From Syntrophomonadaceae bacterium (lineage in GTDB: Bacteria; Bacillota; Syntrophomonadia; Syntrophomonadales; Syntrophomonadaceae), in the NCBI GenBank assembly GCA_014360155.1, contig JACIYB010000006.1, positions 1-36,097 on the forward strand: 36,097 nucleotides of DNA, given 5' to 3'. A program made the translations under genes and the position numbers. The notes under the pieces are model-generated. The model did not search any database and was not told the DNA's origin. It saw only the letters and a list, made by a program, of their open reading frames with translations. Shown piece by piece: positions 6,757 through 16,780 of the stretch. Position 1 is the first letter of the stretch. Each line of letters starts with the position of its first letter.

Positions 6757-9264
6757 TCAGTTAACTAATCTTTGTGCAGCAAGAACTGCCGATCTTGCAT
6801 CTTCAGAATAGGCATCAGCTCCTATACTTTTCGCGTATTCCTCATTTAGCACAGCTCCCCCCACCATTATTTTACAGCGCAAGCCCCTTGCTTTAGCACC
6901 TTCAATTACTTCCTTCATTCTGGTCATGGTTGTCGTCATAAGGGCGCTTAGTCCTATAATATCAGCATTTTCTTGCTCAGCAACATCGAGTATCCGTTCA
7001 GTCTTCACATCTTTGCCCAAATCTATTACCCTAAAACCATAGTTTTCCAGCAATACGCAAACTATGTTCTTGCCTATGTCGTGAATATCACCTTCTACTG
7101 TAGCCATAACGATAACGCCCTTCACTACCTCAGATTCTTTGGGCAGATAAGGCTTAACAACAGCGAATGCTTTCTTCATAGCTTCAGCCGACATCATTAA
7201 CTGGGGCAAAAAATATTTTTTCTGGTCATACATCTCTCCTGCCCTTTCAATACCGGGGATTAAAGCTTTGTTAATGATATCCAAGGGTGCTGTTTTTTCT
7301 TCCTCCAGAGCCTTTAAAACCAGGTCTTCAATTCCGTCTTTATCTCCCTCGAAAACAGCGGTCTCCAGTTCTCGCCATATTCCCTTCCGCGAGCTATGCT
7401 CTGTCCTGCCGATGCTCACATCATCGGGAGAAATTGATTCCTTGCTCCCCTCCTGTAAAATTTCCGGGATATTACAGACCTCGCAAATACTGTGCCTGGG
7501 TTTCAATGTCGTTCCCGTCCCTCCAGGCTTATAATCACTATAGTGGTATATAAAGGCTTTACAGTTGATATCCCGATTAAGCAAGACAGCAGCAGCCCGG
7601 GTAACATCAAACATCCGTTCCTCAAACGGATTTATAATCGGCAGATCAAGTCCGGCCGCCCAAGCCATCGCAAGATAAGTCGAATTCAAAACATCACGGG
7701 CCGGCAACCCGTGGGATATATTACTGATACCCAACACTGTTCCCACATCAAGCTCACCCTTCACAGCACTCAAAGCTTTCAGGGTCTCCATAACCAGAGA
7801 TTGTTCGGCACTGGCTGTTTTCACCAGGCAGTCAATATAAATGTCCTCATCACGAAGTCCGTACTCTTTACACCGCCTATATATTTTCCTGGCTATTGCT
7901 ACTCTCTCCTCAGCCCTATCGGGGATGCCGCTTTCATCCAGGCACAGTCCTAATACAGCAGCGCCATATTTTTTAGCCAGAGGAAGCACTCTTTTTAAAT
8001 GTCTTTCTTCTCCTGTAGTAGAATTTATCAGCGGCCTGCCCACGAAGTGCTTGAGCCCTTCTTCCACTGCCTCAATATTGGTCGAATCTATGGAAAGAGG
8101 CAGATCCACAGCTGATTGTATAGCTTTAACTGCCCGTTTCATAGCCAGTGGCTCATCTATTCCCGGCACACCCATATTCACATCAAGCATAGGCGTACCT
8201 GCAGCAGACTGTCTCCTTGCTTCTTCAACAACCATCTGCATCCTGCCTTCCTTTATATCATAAGCCAGCTTTTTTCTCGCTGTAGGATTAATTCTCTCCC
8301 CTATAAAAGCCAGGGGATAACCCTCACCTATCAAAAGATGTGTACTGCGTGATGCAAATGCTTTCAATTTCTTAGGTTTCCTTGCAAGCGGCGGCAAACC
8401 TTTAATCGTGCTGGATATGGCCTGGATATGTTCTGGAGTGCTGCCGCAGCAGCCGCCTATTATATTGGCGCCTGCGTCTCTTAACCGCAGAGCATATTCG
8501 GCCATTTCCTCAGGTGTATCAGGAAAAACCGTTTTTCCGTCAATTAGCACCGGCATTCCCGCGTTAGGTTCGACCGACAAAAAAACACTGGAGTATCTCT
8601 GCATTTGTTCTATAACAGGCAACAGTTCTTTAGAACCCCCCGAGCAATTAGCTCCTATTGCTAATGGCTGAAGTGCCTCTAGAATTATCAGTGCTGTTAT
8701 GGGGTCAGTCCCCATAACAGTCCTCCCGTCATTTTCAAAAGTCATATGAGCAATAACCGGCAAACGAGTATTTTCCTTAGCAGCTATCAAGGCTGCTCTC
8801 ATCTCTCCAATATCAGTCATGGTCTCAATTGAAATTAAATCTGCCCCCGCTTTTTCACAAGCAACCATTTGTTCCTTAAATACAGCGTACAAATCGTCGA
8901 ACTCAACATCCCCCATAGGACTGAGAATTTTACCTGTTGGTCCTATAGAAGCAGCTACTATCGCACGGCCCTTCGCCTGTTGCTTGGCTATCCTCACAGC
9001 TTCAGAATTAATCTCTGCAACCATTTCATGCAGGCCATATTCAGCCAACTTGAAACGGTTTCCCCCAAAAGTGTTAGTTTGAATAATATCTGACCCGGCT
9101 TCTAAATAGCGATAATGTATTTCTCTTAAAACTTGAGGGTGGTTGATCCCGTACAGCTCTGGACACTCTCCCGGTTTCATCCCGTTTTCTTGTAGCATGG
9201 TCCCCATGGCCCCATCGAGTATTAAGATCTTTTCTTTTAACAAAGCCGACAAATCAGCAACCAT
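6757..9264 (-). CDS. metH: Cobalamin-dependent methionine synthase lacking the reactivation domain
   Basis: 835 aa; homocysteine S-methyltransferase (GGCCGSTPEHI), pterin-binding (GERINPTARKK), B12-binding (EGDIHDIGKNIV); stops after the B12 domain. Confidence 0.95.
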   Translation of the reverse strand: MVADLSALLKEKILILDGAMGTMLQENGMKPGECPELYGINHPQVLREIHYRYLEAGSDIIQTNTFGGNRFKLAEYGLHEMVAEINSEAVRIAKQQAKGRAIVAASIGPTGKILSPMGDVEFDDLYAVFKEQMVACEKAGADLISIETMTDIGEMRAALIAAKENTRLPVIAHMTFENDGRTVMGTDPITALIILEALQPLAIGANCSGGSKELLPVIEQMQRYSSVFLSVEPNAGMPVLIDGKTVFPDTPEEMAEYALRLRDAGANIIGGCCGSTPEHIQAISSTIKGLPPLARKPKKLKAFASRSTHLLIGEGYPLAFIGERINPTARKKLAYDIKEGRMQMVVEEARRQSAAGTPMLDVNMGVPGIDEPLAMKRAVKAIQSAVDLPLSIDSTNIEAVEEGLKHFVGRPLINSTTGEERHLKRVLPLAKKYGAAVLGLCLDESGIPDRAEERVAIARKIYRRCKEYGLRDEDIYIDCLVKTASAEQSLVMETLKALSAVKGELDVGTVLGISNISHGLPARDVLNSTYLAMAWAAGLDLPIINPFEERMFDVTRAAAVLLNRDINCKAFIYHYSDYKPGGTGTTLKPRHSICEVCNIPEILQEGSKESISPDDVSIGRTEHSSRKGIWRELETAVFEGDKDGIEDLVLKALEEEKTAPLDIINKALIPGIERAGEMYDQKKYFLPQLMMSAEAMKKAFAVVKPYLPKESEVVKGVIVMATVEGDIHDIGKNIVCVLLENYGFRVIDLGKDVKTERILDVAEQENADIIGLSALMTTTMTRMKEVIEGAKARGLRCKIMVGGAVLNEEYAKSIGADAYSEDARSAVLAAQRLVN

Positions 9265-9411
9265 CTTAGAAATTCCTCCTCTACTTTTATGTGCAAAAGC
9301 TTATGGGCACAATCATAACAGTAATCGAGCAACCACCGTCAAGTCCCCAGCTAATCGACGCACCCCTTTTATATTCACTTGCAATGCTTATAACATTTTT
9401 ACAATATATAT

Positions 9412-9439
9412 AAGAAAAACCCTCTGGCAAAGGAGGGTT
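9412..9439 (-). terminator. Riboswitch-associated intrinsic terminator
   Basis: Minus strand AACCCTCCTTTGCCAGAGGGTTTTTCTT directly after the SAM-I aptamer. Confidence 0.9.
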
Positions 9440-9451
9440 AATGGGTTCTCC

Positions 9452-9553
9452 CTCTTATCTGCCAGGTTCTCCCTGCAGGAATTGGCACCATACCCTCGCC
9501 TGGGCGGTTGCCGGGTTTCATCGGGCCAGTCCCTCCACCTCTCTGGATAAGAG
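9452..9553 (-). promoter_or_regulatory. SAM-I (S-box) riboswitch upstream of metH operon
   Basis: Minus strand CTCTTATCCAGAGAGGTGGAGGGACTGGCCCGATGAAACCCGGCAACC...GGTGCCAATTCCTGCAGG...GATAAGAG; canonical S-box core and P1 closing stem. Confidence 0.98.
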
Positions 9554-9649
9554 TACAATTATCTAAAATGCACATAGTATAATTATACTGTTAATTCTAA
9601 AAAATACGTTTAATTTTTAAACAAAATTACAGCCCGGCTAACAGCAGAC

Positions 9650-9955
9650 TCATGAACCAGAACTGTCCGTTTCCTCGAGTTCACTTTTAATATTGTTTGT
9701 TTTACCAGCTTCCTGCTTTTTATCAGTTTTACTGGCAGAATCGTCATCCACTTTCAGGGCATTTTCGAATTCCCTCTTCACTCCCGTGGTGGCCTTCTTG
9801 AATTCATTCATAGCTTTACCAACAGATTTTGCGACCTCAGGCAATTTCCCCGGTCCAACTACGATCAATGCTATCAGCAAAATGAGAACTATTTCCCAAG
9901 GGCCAATATTCCCAATAAATCCGAACATAATTACCTCCTGTAAACAACTGGGCAC
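9650..9955 (-). CDS. tatA: Sec-independent translocase TatA/E family protein
   Basis: GPWEIVLILLIALIVVGPGKLPEVAKSVGKAMNEFKKA; likely start at internal ATG (MFGFIGNIG, ~9928). Confidence 0.93.
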   Translation of the reverse strand: MPSCLQEVIMFGFIGNIGPWEIVLILLIALIVVGPGKLPEVAKSVGKAMNEFKKATTGVKREFENALKVDDDSASKTDKKQEAGKTNNIKSELEETDSSGS

Positions 9956-10538: not shown

Positions 10539-11055
10539 ATCAAATCTCCCTTCAAAACAAATTTCTTTTTTTATGTTTTTATATTTCCTAAGAAAAATAA
10601 AACTATTCAATTTATTTGCATACAAAAATATGGTAATTTTTTGCTTTTAAACAAAATCCTAGCCCTATTGAGCATTAAACTGGTACAAACATCGGCAACA
10701 CCTGCTGCTCGAATTAAAAATCAAATATAAAACCTGTAAAATAAAATTTCTCAAATACTCGTACAGAACATGTGCAAACAGTTAATTTATACCGCAAATC
10801 TCGCAATACCCCCATTTATAATGAACTTCGGCGCAATATACCCAGGATTTTCCCACAAAATAAGTTTCTGACACGTATAATATAACCCTATTTTTATATA
10901 ACTTAACAACTATATGTATATGCATAATACATCCCTCTCTCCACTCTATACAACCAGAATTTAGGTTACATTATGAAAAATCTCCTTAAATATTCGGTTT
11001 CAAATTTAGCAGTATTTTCATATAGTAATATAGCAAAACTGAAAGGTTGAGCTCC

Positions 11056-12078
11056 ATGAGAAGTGTATCTTTATTCCCGTACTATGCAAAAGACGCCGAT
11101 GACAAAATTACCGTGCCCTGGAATATAAAGCATGTAAGAGCCTCTTCTTTTTGGCCGCACTCTCAAGGTGATGGTGCAGTCGTAGCAGTAGTCGATACCG
11201 GCTTGGACGTAGAACATCCCGAAATAAAAGAGAGAATAATATCACCGGTTAACTTCACTGCCCCCGGTTACAGGGATAATGACGTAAGGGATAAGGAAGG
11301 CCACGGAACCCATGTTGCAGGAATAATAGGCGGAAAAAATACTGGAATTGCTCCACGCTGCAGAATAATGCCTCTCAAAGTATTCGGAGACGATAAAGCC
11401 GGAATTAATATTCATGAAGCCTTCAAATACATCCTGGAGTGGAATCGAACTGCAACAGAACATGACAGGGTAGTAGCTGTAAACTGCAGCTTCGGCAGCC
11501 AGGTTTACGATCCAATTATGGCTTACCTCATACGCACCTTAACCAGCAGCGGTGTTTCAGTAATAGTAGCTGCCGGTAATTCTGGAGATGGAGACCCCGA
11601 TACCCATGAAGTATTCTCCTACCCTGCTTACATTTGGGAAGTCATAACTGCCTCAGCTATCAAAGAAGACGGTCTTAACGCCGGCTATTCGAATTCCTTT
11701 GACGGCATCGACCTAGGAGCCCCAGGGAATAACATCTGCTCGTGCTGGCCGGGAGGAAAATACAAAAAGCTGTCGGGAACCAGTATGGCTGCTCCTCATG
11801 TAACCGGAGCGATGGCTTTGATATACGCCATGTGGCGAAAAAGGGAAGGCAGGTATCCTACAGTTGAGGAAGCAGAATCCGTTCTATGGAAACACATACG
11901 CACAGTCGATATGGACCCTTTTCTGATAGGCAAGGGAATACTCGATCTAACTTACGAGCCAAAACGATGGCCGCTGTACAGGGTTCAGATAGGTGCTTTC
12001 TATCACAAATCCAGGGCCAGAGTAAAGCAAAAAGAAGCTGAAAAATTAGGCTTGAGTACACATCTGGCAAAGTACTGA
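11056..12078 (+). CDS. S8 family intracellular-subtilisin-like serine protease with partial SPOR-like C-terminus
   Basis: Catalytic triad motifs VAVVDTGLD, GHGTHVAGI, SGTSMAAPHVTGA; N-terminal LFPY (cf. LIPY of ISPs), no signal peptide; C-terminus YRVQIGAFYHKSRARVKQKEAEKLGLSTHLAKY; ATG 9 nt after GAAAGG. Confidence 0.92.
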   Translation: MRSVSLFPYYAKDADDKITVPWNIKHVRASSFWPHSQGDGAVVAVVDTGLDVEHPEIKERIISPVNFTAPGYRDNDVRDKEGHGTHVAGIIGGKNTGIAPRCRIMPLKVFGDDKAGINIHEAFKYILEWNRTATEHDRVVAVNCSFGSQVYDPIMAYLIRTLTSSGVSVIVAAGNSGDGDPDTHEVFSYPAYIWEVITASAIKEDGLNAGYSNSFDGIDLGAPGNNICSCWPGGKYKKLSGTSMAAPHVTGAMALIYAMWRKREGRYPTVEEAESVLWKHIRTVDMDPFLIGKGILDLTYEPKRWPLYRVQIGAFYHKSRARVKQKEAEKLGLSTHLAKY

Positions 12079-12111: not shown

Positions 12112-12160
12112 CATAAAAAAACGGGACAGACAGTTTCGGTAATACCAAAACCGTCTGCCC
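12112..12160 (-). terminator. Intrinsic terminator of TusA operon (possibly bidirectional)
   Basis: Minus strand GGGCAGACGGTTTTGGTATTACCGAAACTGTCTGTCCCGTTTTTTT. Confidence 0.85.
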
Positions 12161-12230: not shown

Positions 12231-12449
12231 TCATTTGGGTTCCAAATACAATTTAAATTCCCTGCCGTTTTCCTCCTCTTTAACCGTATAGCCGCTGTTC
12301 TCTGCCAGTCTAGATACATTTTCCCTAGACACCTGGCTGTCGGTCATTACTTCAATAGGCTGGTTCGGGTTTTCTTCCATAGCCTTTTTAACCTTAACAA
12401 CAGGAATAGGACACGACAATCCCCTTACATCAATTTTCACCATGCACAC
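12231..12449 (-). CDS. TusA-family sulfurtransferase / YedF N-domain-like protein
   Basis: 72 aa; VKIDVRGLSCPIPVVKVKKAME CPxP motif. Confidence 0.93.
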   Translation of the reverse strand: MCMVKIDVRGLSCPIPVVKVKKAMEENPNQPIEVMTDSQVSRENVSRLAENSGYTVKEEENGREFKLYLEPK

Positions 12450-13323
12450 ACCCCCTGTTCATGGAATTTATACCCAGGAAATCCAGGGCATCTGGTAAAA
12501 AGCGTATAAGCTCCGAGATCTTGGTAACAGGAGTTACCCCGGCAGCTTTACCCGCCAGACGATTTGCTTTTACACTTGCGACCGCAGCATCTTCGAGTTC
12601 AAAACCTGCATGTACAAGCGCTGCTGCCATTCCCGTGATGGTATCGCCAGTCCCGCCTATACATTCCATTTCAGGAACATCCGGTTCATCAATCCGGTAC
12701 TTAATCCCATCTTTCCTAGCAATATAGTCAACTGCTCCTTTAACTATTAATAATTTGGCGGCACCTCCCAATCTATAAGCTTCTTCAATTAATCCGGGCA
12801 CCTCATTGTCGCAGGATTCAAAGAGGTGCTGGTTAATGTACGCCGGGTGAATGGCGTCCCTATCCGCAAGAAAAGCCATTTCCGATACATCGGGTGTAAA
12901 TATGTCAAACTCCTCTGCCAAACCTGCAGCTTTAGCAGCATACATAGAAGCCGCGTCCGCAATCATAACCGGCCTTCTTGGTAATTTCGCCGCTGCTGCA
13001 ACAACATTTTTAATCAAACCCAGGTTAGGCAGCCAGTAATGAAGAGCAAGAACACGGGGAGCATATTCTTCCAGCTTTTCTGCCAGATGCTCATAAAGCA
13101 ATCTGCTCCCTTTACCAGAACCCGTATCCCCTCCCAGAACCGCATAAGGCGGGGACAATCGCAGAGCATTGCTGACCGTCAATGCAGCACTTGCCATTGC
13201 TGAAGTTCCCTGAAAACATGGAACAGTATAACCACCAACAGACAACGAATCGTCCTTCATCTCTACTGTACCTTCGACCAAAGAAATATCTGGAAAAGGC
13301 ACAATTCCAGCAATTATTAACAC
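12430..13323 (-). CDS. YjeF C-terminal-domain / ribokinase-fold carbohydrate kinase-like protein
   Basis: GTGDTITGMAAALVHAG anion-hole/GxGD motif; GGDTGSGKGS; overlaps both neighbours. Confidence 0.75.
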   Translation of the reverse strand: MLIIAGIVPFPDISLVEGTVEMKDDSLSVGGYTVPCFQGTSAMASAALTVSNALRLSPPYAVLGGDTGSGKGSRLLYEHLAEKLEEYAPRVLALHYWLPNLGLIKNVVAAAAKLPRRPVMIADAASMYAAKAAGLAEEFDIFTPDVSEMAFLADRDAIHPAYINQHLFESCDNEVPGLIEEAYRLGGAAKLLIVKGAVDYIARKDGIKYRIDEPDVPEMECIGGTGDTITGMAAALVHAGFELEDAAVASVKANRLAGKAAGVTPVTKISELIRFLPDALDFLGINSMNRGCVHGEN

Positions 13324-13871
13324 TTTTTATTCTCCTCCCAGATCATAAGGCTTTCTTCCAGAGCTCGATCGAGCATCAGCGCACAGAGAGTCGCCCCAAT
13401 ATCCTTCGGACGAGGGGCTTGGTCTAACCGTTTGCCGACCAACTGTATATTGAGAAAAGGAATGTCAGGACATCCCCCTCCAGAAACGTTAACGATCATA
13501 CCTGTTATATCATCAAAGGTCAACTTCATATTCCCTGCCTTCACCATAGTATACCCTTCATAATGGGTGACCTTCACTACATCCAGCAGCTCAAGGTTGC
13601 CTTTGACAGGGTAAATACCTTGATGAGGAACCCCGTTAGCCAATATGCGGTTAATTACAGGCAGCTCTACCAACCTTATCTCCAGAGCAAGATCACACCC
13701 CTTGCGCAGCTCTGGAGGCGGAGCAAGCAGCCTGCAGTATAAATCATTCTTCCGCACCAGCTTTTCTGCTTTAATGGCCTCTTCTACTGTATTAAAAATC
13801 ACCAAGCCCTTTTCTATCGCAGACTGCGGCCCAGACTCATCAGCAGAAGTTCTCTTCCCTTTCCAGAACAT
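13317..13871 (-). CDS. DUF3343 (putative Se/S carrier-like) protein with C-terminal extension
   Basis: GLVIFNTVEEAIKAEKLVRKNDLYCRLLAPPPELRKGCDLALEI matches DUF3343 pattern; ~100 aa extension with SGGGCPDIP. Confidence 0.75.
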   Translation of the reverse strand: MFWKGKRTSADESGPQSAIEKGLVIFNTVEEAIKAEKLVRKNDLYCRLLAPPPELRKGCDLALEIRLVELPVINRILANGVPHQGIYPVKGNLELLDVVKVTHYEGYTMVKAGNMKLTFDDITGMIVNVSGGGCPDIPFLNIQLVGKRLDQAPRPKDIGATLCALMLDRALEESLMIWEENKKC

Positions 13872-13918
13872 ATATACCCTCCCGTTGCATGCATAATAAA
13901 GACACTGCTTTGTCCTAA

Positions 13919-14971
13919 TTAATCATATCTTTCAATCATTGTGAACCCGACTATTACCATAAAAACGAGGCCTATAATAACAGCTGTTGGACCAAAGGCA
14001 CCTACACCGGCTGGGCTTGATGCCAGACCGAAATTATGAGAAAAAGCCGCTCCGGCTAATATCCCTAATATGCAGATACCCGCATCAGTGTCTCCCTCAG
14101 ACGCCAGTATAGTCTGCCGCAATGGACATCCCCCCAGCAGGGTAGCGCCAAGACCCACCAGAACCATACCCATAAAATTCCACAAACCGTCGTTATGAGC
14201 TACCGGTTGGTCAACAAAACCGATATTAACCCCGCCCATTATCAGATTAACCAGCAATGCGCCCGCAAAAAACGCAGCAATCCCACTGAAAAGGTAACTG
14301 TCCTTTACCAGGAAAAGGTCACGCCATCCGCCCACAAAACACATCCTGGTCTTTTGGGCAAGAATTCCGATGACAAGGCCGACCGCCAGTGATATTCCCA
14401 GAGCTGCATGGGCTGCACCCGGTCCTTTTTCACTGCTGAAAATAAATCCAGGTTGAAACACAGCTAAAAGCAACAATCCAAACATCACCATGGGTATCAG
14501 CCAGCCAAGCAAAACAGGCTGTTCGACCGCACGCCCCAGGTTAAACCCGCGTTTTAAGAAATAGATCCCAACTAATGCCCCCACGGCAACCCCTAGCAAA
14601 CCGACAGCGGCATTAAGGTCACCTCCGGCCAAACGGAGAACAGCCCTAACCGGACAGCCGAGAAAAACCAAAGCTCCGATCATTGCAAACGCAGACAGAA
14701 AAAACCGCAGCAGAGGAGAAGATCCCCCCCGAGGGCGAAAATCCTTACTGACAAACGCACTCAAAGCCGCCCCCAAGCCTATCCCCATGATTTCAGGACG
14801 CAGATACTGAACTACCTCAGCCCTGTGCAAACCTAGTCCACCCGCAATGTCCCGGTAAAAACAGGCTATACAAATTCCCATATTGACCGGGTTACCCAGC
14901 CCAGTCATATAAGCTGCCAATCCGCCAAAAATAAATCCAGCCGCAATCATTAACAACTTCAGATTTTTCAA
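13919..14971 (-). CDS. yedE: YedE-related selenium/sulfur membrane transporter
   Basis: Multiple TM; FLGCPVRAVLRLAGGDLNA and LLGGCPLRQTILASEGDTDAG repeats, CFVGGWRDLFLVKD; TTG start after GGGGAGGG proposed (track ORF begins 15028). Confidence 0.87.
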   Translation of the reverse strand: MKNLKLLMIAAGFIFGGLAAYMTGLGNPVNMGICIACFYRDIAGGLGLHRAEVVQYLRPEIMGIGLGAALSAFVSKDFRPRGGSSPLLRFFLSAFAMIGALVFLGCPVRAVLRLAGGDLNAAVGLLGVAVGALVGIYFLKRGFNLGRAVEQPVLLGWLIPMVMFGLLLLAVFQPGFIFSSEKGPGAAHAALGISLAVGLVIGILAQKTRMCFVGGWRDLFLVKDSYLFSGIAAFFAGALLVNLIMGGVNIGFVDQPVAHNDGLWNFMGMVLVGLGATLLGGCPLRQTILASEGDTDAGICILGILAGAAFSHNFGLASSPAGVGAFGPTAVIIGLVFMVIVGFTMIERYD

Positions 14972-15163
14972 ATAATATCCCTCCCCTAGAAAATTCTTAA
15001 AAACTAAATACCGTCCCTCCTCTCTCATCCCGTTTCTATAATTCCATATAATAATTATACTAATAATGTTTATTTATTTTTTCAATAGAAATTCAAAACT
15101 TTTTATGATTTATTGTATAACATAAAGTTATTGTTTAGGTTAAGAGTGAACCCCCAGATATAG

Positions 15164-16209: not shown

Positions 16210-16512
16210 TCATTTTATAATCTTTGTTAAATCCATTCTTGAATTTATAATTCGGTGAATCTCAATTGTATCTTCTAACACGATATAAAATATTAAGTAT
16301 TTATCAACTACCATCTTTCGGTATCTAAAACCCATCACATCTACTGGATATTCCTCATAAATAAATGGGAATTCTTTTAAAGCATTAATTTTTTCTATAA
16401 TTCTATCATATTGTTTTAAAGCTGTGCTTGGGTAGAATTGAGATAAATAATCAATCATATCACCCAAATCAACCTTTGCAGAAGGAAGCATTTTAATCTT
16501 ATATTTTTTCAA
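16210..16512 (-). CDS. RelE/ParE family type II toxin
   Basis: 100 aa; YKIKMLPSAKVDLGDMIDYLSQFYPSTALKQYDRIIEKINALKEFP...YRKMVVDKYLIFYIV. Confidence 0.92.
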   Translation of the reverse strand: MKKYKIKMLPSAKVDLGDMIDYLSQFYPSTALKQYDRIIEKINALKEFPFIYEEYPVDVMGFRYRKMVVDKYLIFYIVLEDTIEIHRIINSRMDLTKIIK

Positions 16513-16780
16513 TGAGTTTCTCCCTCATTTCTTTTGAAACCTCATCAAAATCATATCTTACATCTGTTGATTTTGCTTCCATTGCAGCTTCTTTTAATTT
16601 TTCATAAATCAAAATATCCAGCTTAAGCCTTTCATAAGCTTCCATGCTCATTACAACCATATCCCCATAACCATTCTTAGTCAAGAATACAGGTTCGGCG
16701 GTTTCATGGACAACCCTTGAAATATCAGCAAAATTATTTCTTAAATCTGAAACTGGTCTGATATGCGGCATAATATTCAC
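16499..16780 (-). CDS. Phd/YefM family type II antitoxin
   Basis: 93 aa; IRPVSDLRNNFADISRVVHETAEPVFLTKNGYGDMVVMSMEAYERL; overlaps toxin start by 14 nt. Confidence 0.94.
   Translation of the reverse strand: MNIMPHIRPVSDLRNNFADISRVVHETAEPVFLTKNGYGDMVVMSMEAYERLKLDILIYEKLKEAAMEAKSTDVRYDFDEVSKEMREKLIEKI

Follow-up and report, generated by a model that had tools for sequence, protein, structure and literature searches.

A ribokinase-fold protein as a candidate component of a proposed YedE-TusA selenium operon in Syntrophomonadaceae

According to a 2026 review, no dedicated selenium uptake system has been identified in prokaryotes (PMC13188914), and the locus analyzed here raises the question of what a kinase-like protein is doing among YedE, DUF3343 and TusA proteins. 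The window, by which we mean the whole analyzed stretch of 36,097 nucleotides from a Syntrophomonadaceae bacterium, contains these four ORFs on the minus strand from 14971 to 12231, in the order yedE (13919..14971), the extended DUF3343 gene (13317..13871), the ribokinase-fold gene (12430..13323) and tusA (12231..12443). A preliminary description had reported a four-gene minus-strand cluster with overlaps, and this was confirmed from the ORFs and their family matches. The kinase GTG start overlaps the DUF3343 stop by 7 nt (13317-13323), exactly as that description stated, whereas the kinase/tusA overlap is 14 nt instead of about 20 if tusA begins, as is most likely, at ATG 12443, the start used by its relatives (which begin M(V/I)E(V/I)DVRG). 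The YedE start that it implied, TTG 14971, stands as well. Specifically, relatives have a TTG at this position behind a good Shine-Dalgarno sequence, so ATG 15028, to which the ORF is open upstream, is not needed.

The four genes form a single operon that most likely contains no others, since a strong intrinsic terminator lies 3' of tusA, a same-strand gene for a LysE-type transporter lies some 370 nt upstream of the yedE start, and a subtilase-family protease gene (11047-12078, plus strand) converges on the operon from downstream. The terminator (12124..12160, minus strand, read 12160-12124) has a 17-pair stem, a 3-nt loop and a T run, and ends the operon. Upstream of yedE there is a weak promoter-like site (15057..15085, minus strand) with 9 of 12 matches, a consensus match only and of a kind only slightly commoner here than in shuffled sequence. 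On the far side of the LysE-type gene, between it and guaA, at 16210-16780 on the minus strand, a Phd/YefM-type antitoxin gene (TIGR01552) overlaps a 100-aa ORF that occupies the usual toxin position of such pairs and has no NCBIfam match.

The distribution of the kinase was followed in 54 genomes of the same family and in 399 genomes of the phylum, samples that include some MAGs and in which co-occurrence counts are not independent. Within the family, 8 of the 54 genomes, among them the source genome, have the kinase or an orthologue at E below 1e-95, clearly separated from Nnr, which follows at about 1e-4, and all eight have the order yedE-DUF3343-kinase-tusA. Profile searches of the phylum sample with the kinase and with the extended DUF3343 protein retrieved the identical 18 of 399 genomes, with DUF3343 directly upstream of the kinase in every one of them and yedE present in 17. 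The preliminary description had held that its reading would fail if the kinase were rarely found with yedE and DUF3343, and had proposed neighborhood conservation as a check; the association proves to be close to complete, and it is the four genes that are conserved and not their flanks, where no neighbor is broadly conserved. The same gene order is seen in L002, a contig of a Chloroflexota-labelled MAG, and recurrence of this gene set in several families and in that MAG puts the cluster far beyond chance. L002 was the sole match in a scan of genome contigs with a single query sequence, probably as a result of using one sequence as the query. Downstream of its operon, at 9225-9836, there is a second short TusA-like reading together with a 156-aa ORF that resembles a HAD-type hydrolase (LDLNGT...) and has no Pfam match. 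In relatives without the kinase, tusA directly follows yedE as the standard pair, which indicates that a known selenium pair has been extended from within by DUF3343 and the kinase.

Two of the 18 loci depart from this pattern. In G213 (L101, 5854-7207) the kinase and tusA are kept, DUF3343 is reduced to its C-terminal 76 aa with the N-domain gone, yedE was not found in the genome, and the break in the locus abuts CobN-like genes; this is either a rearrangement or a chimeric contig. G236 (L104, 5944-9645) has a distant DUF3343-kinase pair, 33-39% identical, flanked by an ArsP_1 permease and by a protein in which Sulf_transp is fused to a PEMT/ICMT-like methyltransferase, with yedE elsewhere in the genome. 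This pair could be a chalcogen or metalloid variant.

The family assignments of the three non-kinase proteins bear on what the operon handles. YedE, a 350-aa predicted selenium/sulfur transporter of the Sulf_transp family in Pfam, scores 471 bits against the selenium equivalog TIGR04112 (cut-off 200) and at most 42.5 bits against the thiosulfate and FdhT models, neither of which it passes. Five cysteines (53, 56, 125, 230 and 301, numbered from the ATG) are invariant in all 55 YedE proteins compared. In Methanococcus maripaludis the yedE transcript rises strongly without selenium, and an uptake defect upon yedE deletion was not clear (PMC11097638). A tree of 35 rows placed every kinase-linked YedE in one clade (support 98/94), a strict grouping that was lost after 20 more rows were added. 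In the enlarged tree of 55 proteins the YedE of G109 groups with those of G306 and G192, and the other 20 kinase-linked proteins, which are the YedE of standard operons, form a 99/96 clade that intermixes families f1, f16 and f30. Kinase-less YedE from every one of these families is also found elsewhere in the tree, with G022 having both kinds. This pattern fits a scenario in which the operon moved horizontally as one unit, or one of ancient paralogy followed by loss.

The 70-aa TusA-family carrier is a single domain with one conserved cysteine in its CPxP motif (GLSCPIP), and it passes the PF01206 cut-off with 73 bits. Its 60.7 bits against the YedF model TIGR03527 come from the TusA part only and fall short of the 110 bits that mark the two-domain protein (TusA plus DsrE-like). 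A two-domain YedF, which most relatives have, was not found in the source genome, where the TusA of this operon may take its place. The DUF3343 protein (184 aa) matches Se_S_carrier (PF11823) over residues 22-88 with 53.6 bits (cut-off 25), as do 19 of 19 members of the extended family at E<=1, and it exceeds the typical DUF3343 size of 80-100 aa (PMC5322559) by virtue of a conserved C-terminal domain of about 95 aa that matches no known family. Foldseek with this extension returned no match at E<=0.001, and a family search gave nothing convincing, the best being a weak hit to FKBP26_IF at 6.8e-4. Cys59, Cys134 (SGGGCPD) and Cys163 are invariant in all 19 members.

The genome that holds this selenium-type YedE also carries selenocysteine machinery. 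Specifically, the active-site position of its SelD (MVRAAGUAAK, G000:C162) is encoded by an in-frame TGA, which makes this a Sec-containing SelD, tRNA-Sec is encoded on the same contig as selD, and SelB is present. The selenium trait, whose absence the preliminary description would have counted against its reading, is thus in place. Among kinase-bearing genomes, SelB was found in all 23 tested, that of L002 included, and selD in all 18 of the phylum sample as compared with 261 of 399 (65%) overall. This overlap is significant (hypergeometric 4e-4 by genome, 0.018 by genus) and yet modest evidence because selD is common in the phylum. Stronger links come from two single genomes. In G109 the order is yedE-tusA-DUF3343-kinase-selD and the kinase stop is separated from a Sec-containing selD by 18 nt, this being the one genome with direct selD adjacency, and in L002 a LysR regulator divergent from the operon matches the selenium LysR model NF040786 with 260 bits against a cut-off of 250. 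Both adjacencies favor selenium over sulfur, and they support and narrow the initial selenium/sulfur reading of the operon. Its suggested connection with Se-dependent molybdenum hydroxylases did not hold up: yqeB is absent from the source genome (G000) and from all f1 kinase-bearing genomes, and a link to the Se-cofactor trait is rejected for this genome and its family; yqeB is present in some f16 kinase-bearing genomes.

These same observations bear on the best-surviving alternative, in which the substrate is reduced sulfur (thiosulfate or persulfide) and the selenium link of the operon reflects only shared ancestry plus the commonness of selD in such anaerobes. The TusA and DUF3343 families serve sulfur too, and the membership of YedE in Sulf_transp, the frequency of selD in the phylum sample, and the location of the distant G236 pair away from yedE, with an ArsP_1 permease on one side and another Sulf_transp protein on the other, all point the same way. 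However, the scores of YedE against the selenium equivalog (471 bits) and the thiosulfate models (42.5 bits or less), the operons that adjoin a Sec-selD and a selenium LysR, and the uniform presence of SelB argue against it, and we regard a sulfur function as unlikely.

With selenium as the favored substrate, the question becomes what the 297-aa kinase is. It scores 28.5 bits against PF01256 (NAD(P)H-hydrate dehydratase), marginally above the cut-off of 27, and 29.4 bits against NCBIfam TIGR00196, far under the curated cut-off of 129.85, and its G236 counterpart is under the PF01256 cut-off at 19.1 bits. The family would be labelled 'NAD(P)H-hydrate dehydratase', a label to which the operon adds a concrete context. 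An AlphaFold model is confident (pLDDT 92, pTM 0.92), and its top 50 Foldseek matches are kinases or dehydratases of the ribokinase fold (E down to 1.7e-7, TMq of only 0.45-0.59), the best TMq among these 50 (0.59) belonging to 3rss, the Nnr of Thermotoga. This fold together with an invariant GGTGD, the GxGD catalytic motif, places the protein in the ribokinase-like superfamily, and the catalytic motif is intact in the predicted fold. Across 20 sequences with identity down to 39%, invariance extends to K195-G196, GGTGD227 and N254-R255 and also to D123, D145, E148, H159 and H95-Y96; the latter group is probably on the substrate side. The stretch GDTGSGKGS of the window kinase is not conserved in relatives, and its interpretation as a Walker-A motif was discarded for that reason. 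The alignment has zero invariant cysteines, so the kinase is unlikely to carry selenium itself.

Kinase folds can work through binding alone, and a transport operon might plausibly need gating, so we considered a non-enzymatic, nucleotide-sensing or regulatory subunit acting on YedE or the carriers; the invariance of the three ATP-side and catalytic motifs, as expected of a working kinase, makes this quite improbable. Least likely of all is that the protein is an Nnr displaced into the operon, or some other repair or vitamin kinase with a housekeeping role that merely lies there, as PF01256 matches in 20 of 20 aligned members (E<=0.01) and an hhalign probability of 96.5% with Nnr over the C-terminal 132 columns are outweighed by a separate full-length Nnr in 19 of 19 kinase-bearing genomes tested, by replacement of the Nnr motif TPHPGE with TPDxSE, loss of the NPGMA loop and an N-terminal half that cannot be aligned by sequence, and by exclusive pairing with the extended DUF3343 protein. 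On the grounds of the separate Nnr and the half-length alignment, identity with the housekeeping NAD(P)HX dehydratase itself was rejected. Since each genome tested has its own Nnr, and since homology to Nnr is confined at the sequence level to the ATP-binding half with the Nnr motifs changed, the kinase is most aptly treated as a subfamily of its own within the ribokinase-like superfamily.

We therefore return to selenium and propose, with somewhat better than even confidence, that the operon is a selenium acquisition and delivery module of Sec-decoding bacteria in which the kinase gives the relay an ATP-dependent step. The operon itself, the exclusive pairing of kinase and extended DUF3343, the linkage to a YedE subclade and the restriction to genomes with Sec machinery among those tested are all observed, as are, in single genomes, the adjacencies to selD and to the selenium LysR. 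From these we infer what is transported and in which direction, how the relay is ordered and what the kinase acts on. A reduced selenium species would cross the membrane along the line of conserved cysteines in YedE, and on the cytoplasmic side TusA would take it over through its CPxP motif, in the way that YeeD serves YeeE in thiosulfate uptake. The three invariant cysteines of the extended DUF3343 protein would then pass selenium on towards SelD, a transfer from YedE to TusA to DUF3343 to SelD that is modelled on the YeeE-YeeD precedent. The kinase, with its complete ribokinase-type ATP and catalytic motif, would supply the ATP-dependent step, most likely by phosphorylating a small Se/S carrier or acceptor that bears a hydroxyl group and acts together with DUF3343. 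Several points count against this model, namely the lack of a clear uptake defect upon yedE deletion in M. maripaludis, the possible exporter role of YedE and the occurrence of DUF3343 in genomes without SelD as well (both from PMC5322559), the two deviating loci among the 18, and a direct selD adjacency in one genome only.

Of all parts of the model, what the kinase does chemically is the least secure. Enzymes of the ribokinase-like superfamily transfer phosphate to hydroxyl groups, which in Nnr creates a leaving group, and activation of a hydroxylated acceptor or carrier is for this reason our preferred guess, although a tentative one. It is likewise a possibility, held with well under even confidence, that the kinase is an enzyme new to selenium metabolism that together with the three-cysteine DUF3343 protein phosphorylates a dedicated selenium carrier or acceptor between import and selenophosphate synthesis. 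If true, this would be an ATP-dependent activation step found in no known pathway. The kinase is a new candidate part of selenium uptake and hand-on, and the compactness of the set, four genes of which one encodes a soluble enzyme that apparently uses ATP, makes the selenium uptake question testable.

Finally, in regards to known systems, the operon is a new variant on the YedE-TusA selenium unit to which a DUF3343-kinase pair has been added. The portions of Lin et al. 2015 considered here predict YedE, YedF, DUF3343 and LysR_Se as selenium genes from gene neighborhood and describe YedE as possibly an exporter as well (PMC5322559). The present operon shares with those genes the YedE family TIGR04112, a TusA/SirA-like neighbor, DUF3343 and the association with a selenium LysR. 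It differs in that their DUF3343 is typically 80-100 aa without the C-terminal extension, and in having a single-domain TusA in place of the two-domain YedF and a kinase; a mention of the kinase was not found in those portions or in a literature search for the gene combination. With YeeE-YeeD (TsuA-TsuB) thiosulfate uptake, where a CPxP partner captures the substrate of a membrane cysteine relay (PMC11073785), the operon has in common a cysteine-relay membrane protein and a CPxP TusA-like partner, and it differs by its selenium-type YedE subfamily, its predicted selenium substrate and the extra DUF3343 and kinase. Nnr, or the YjeF C-domain (TM0922, PDB 2ax3/3rss), has the same ribokinase-like fold with KG and GG(T/S)GD motifs, whereas the kinase has its own substrate-side motifs, an N-terminal half unrelated by sequence, and the low TIGR00196 score given above. 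Hydroxyethylthiazole kinase ThiM (PDB 3dzv) is the best solved-structure profile match (E 1.5e-6, profile positions 169-264), but this match is limited to the C-terminal third of the kinase, and a thiamine context is absent here.
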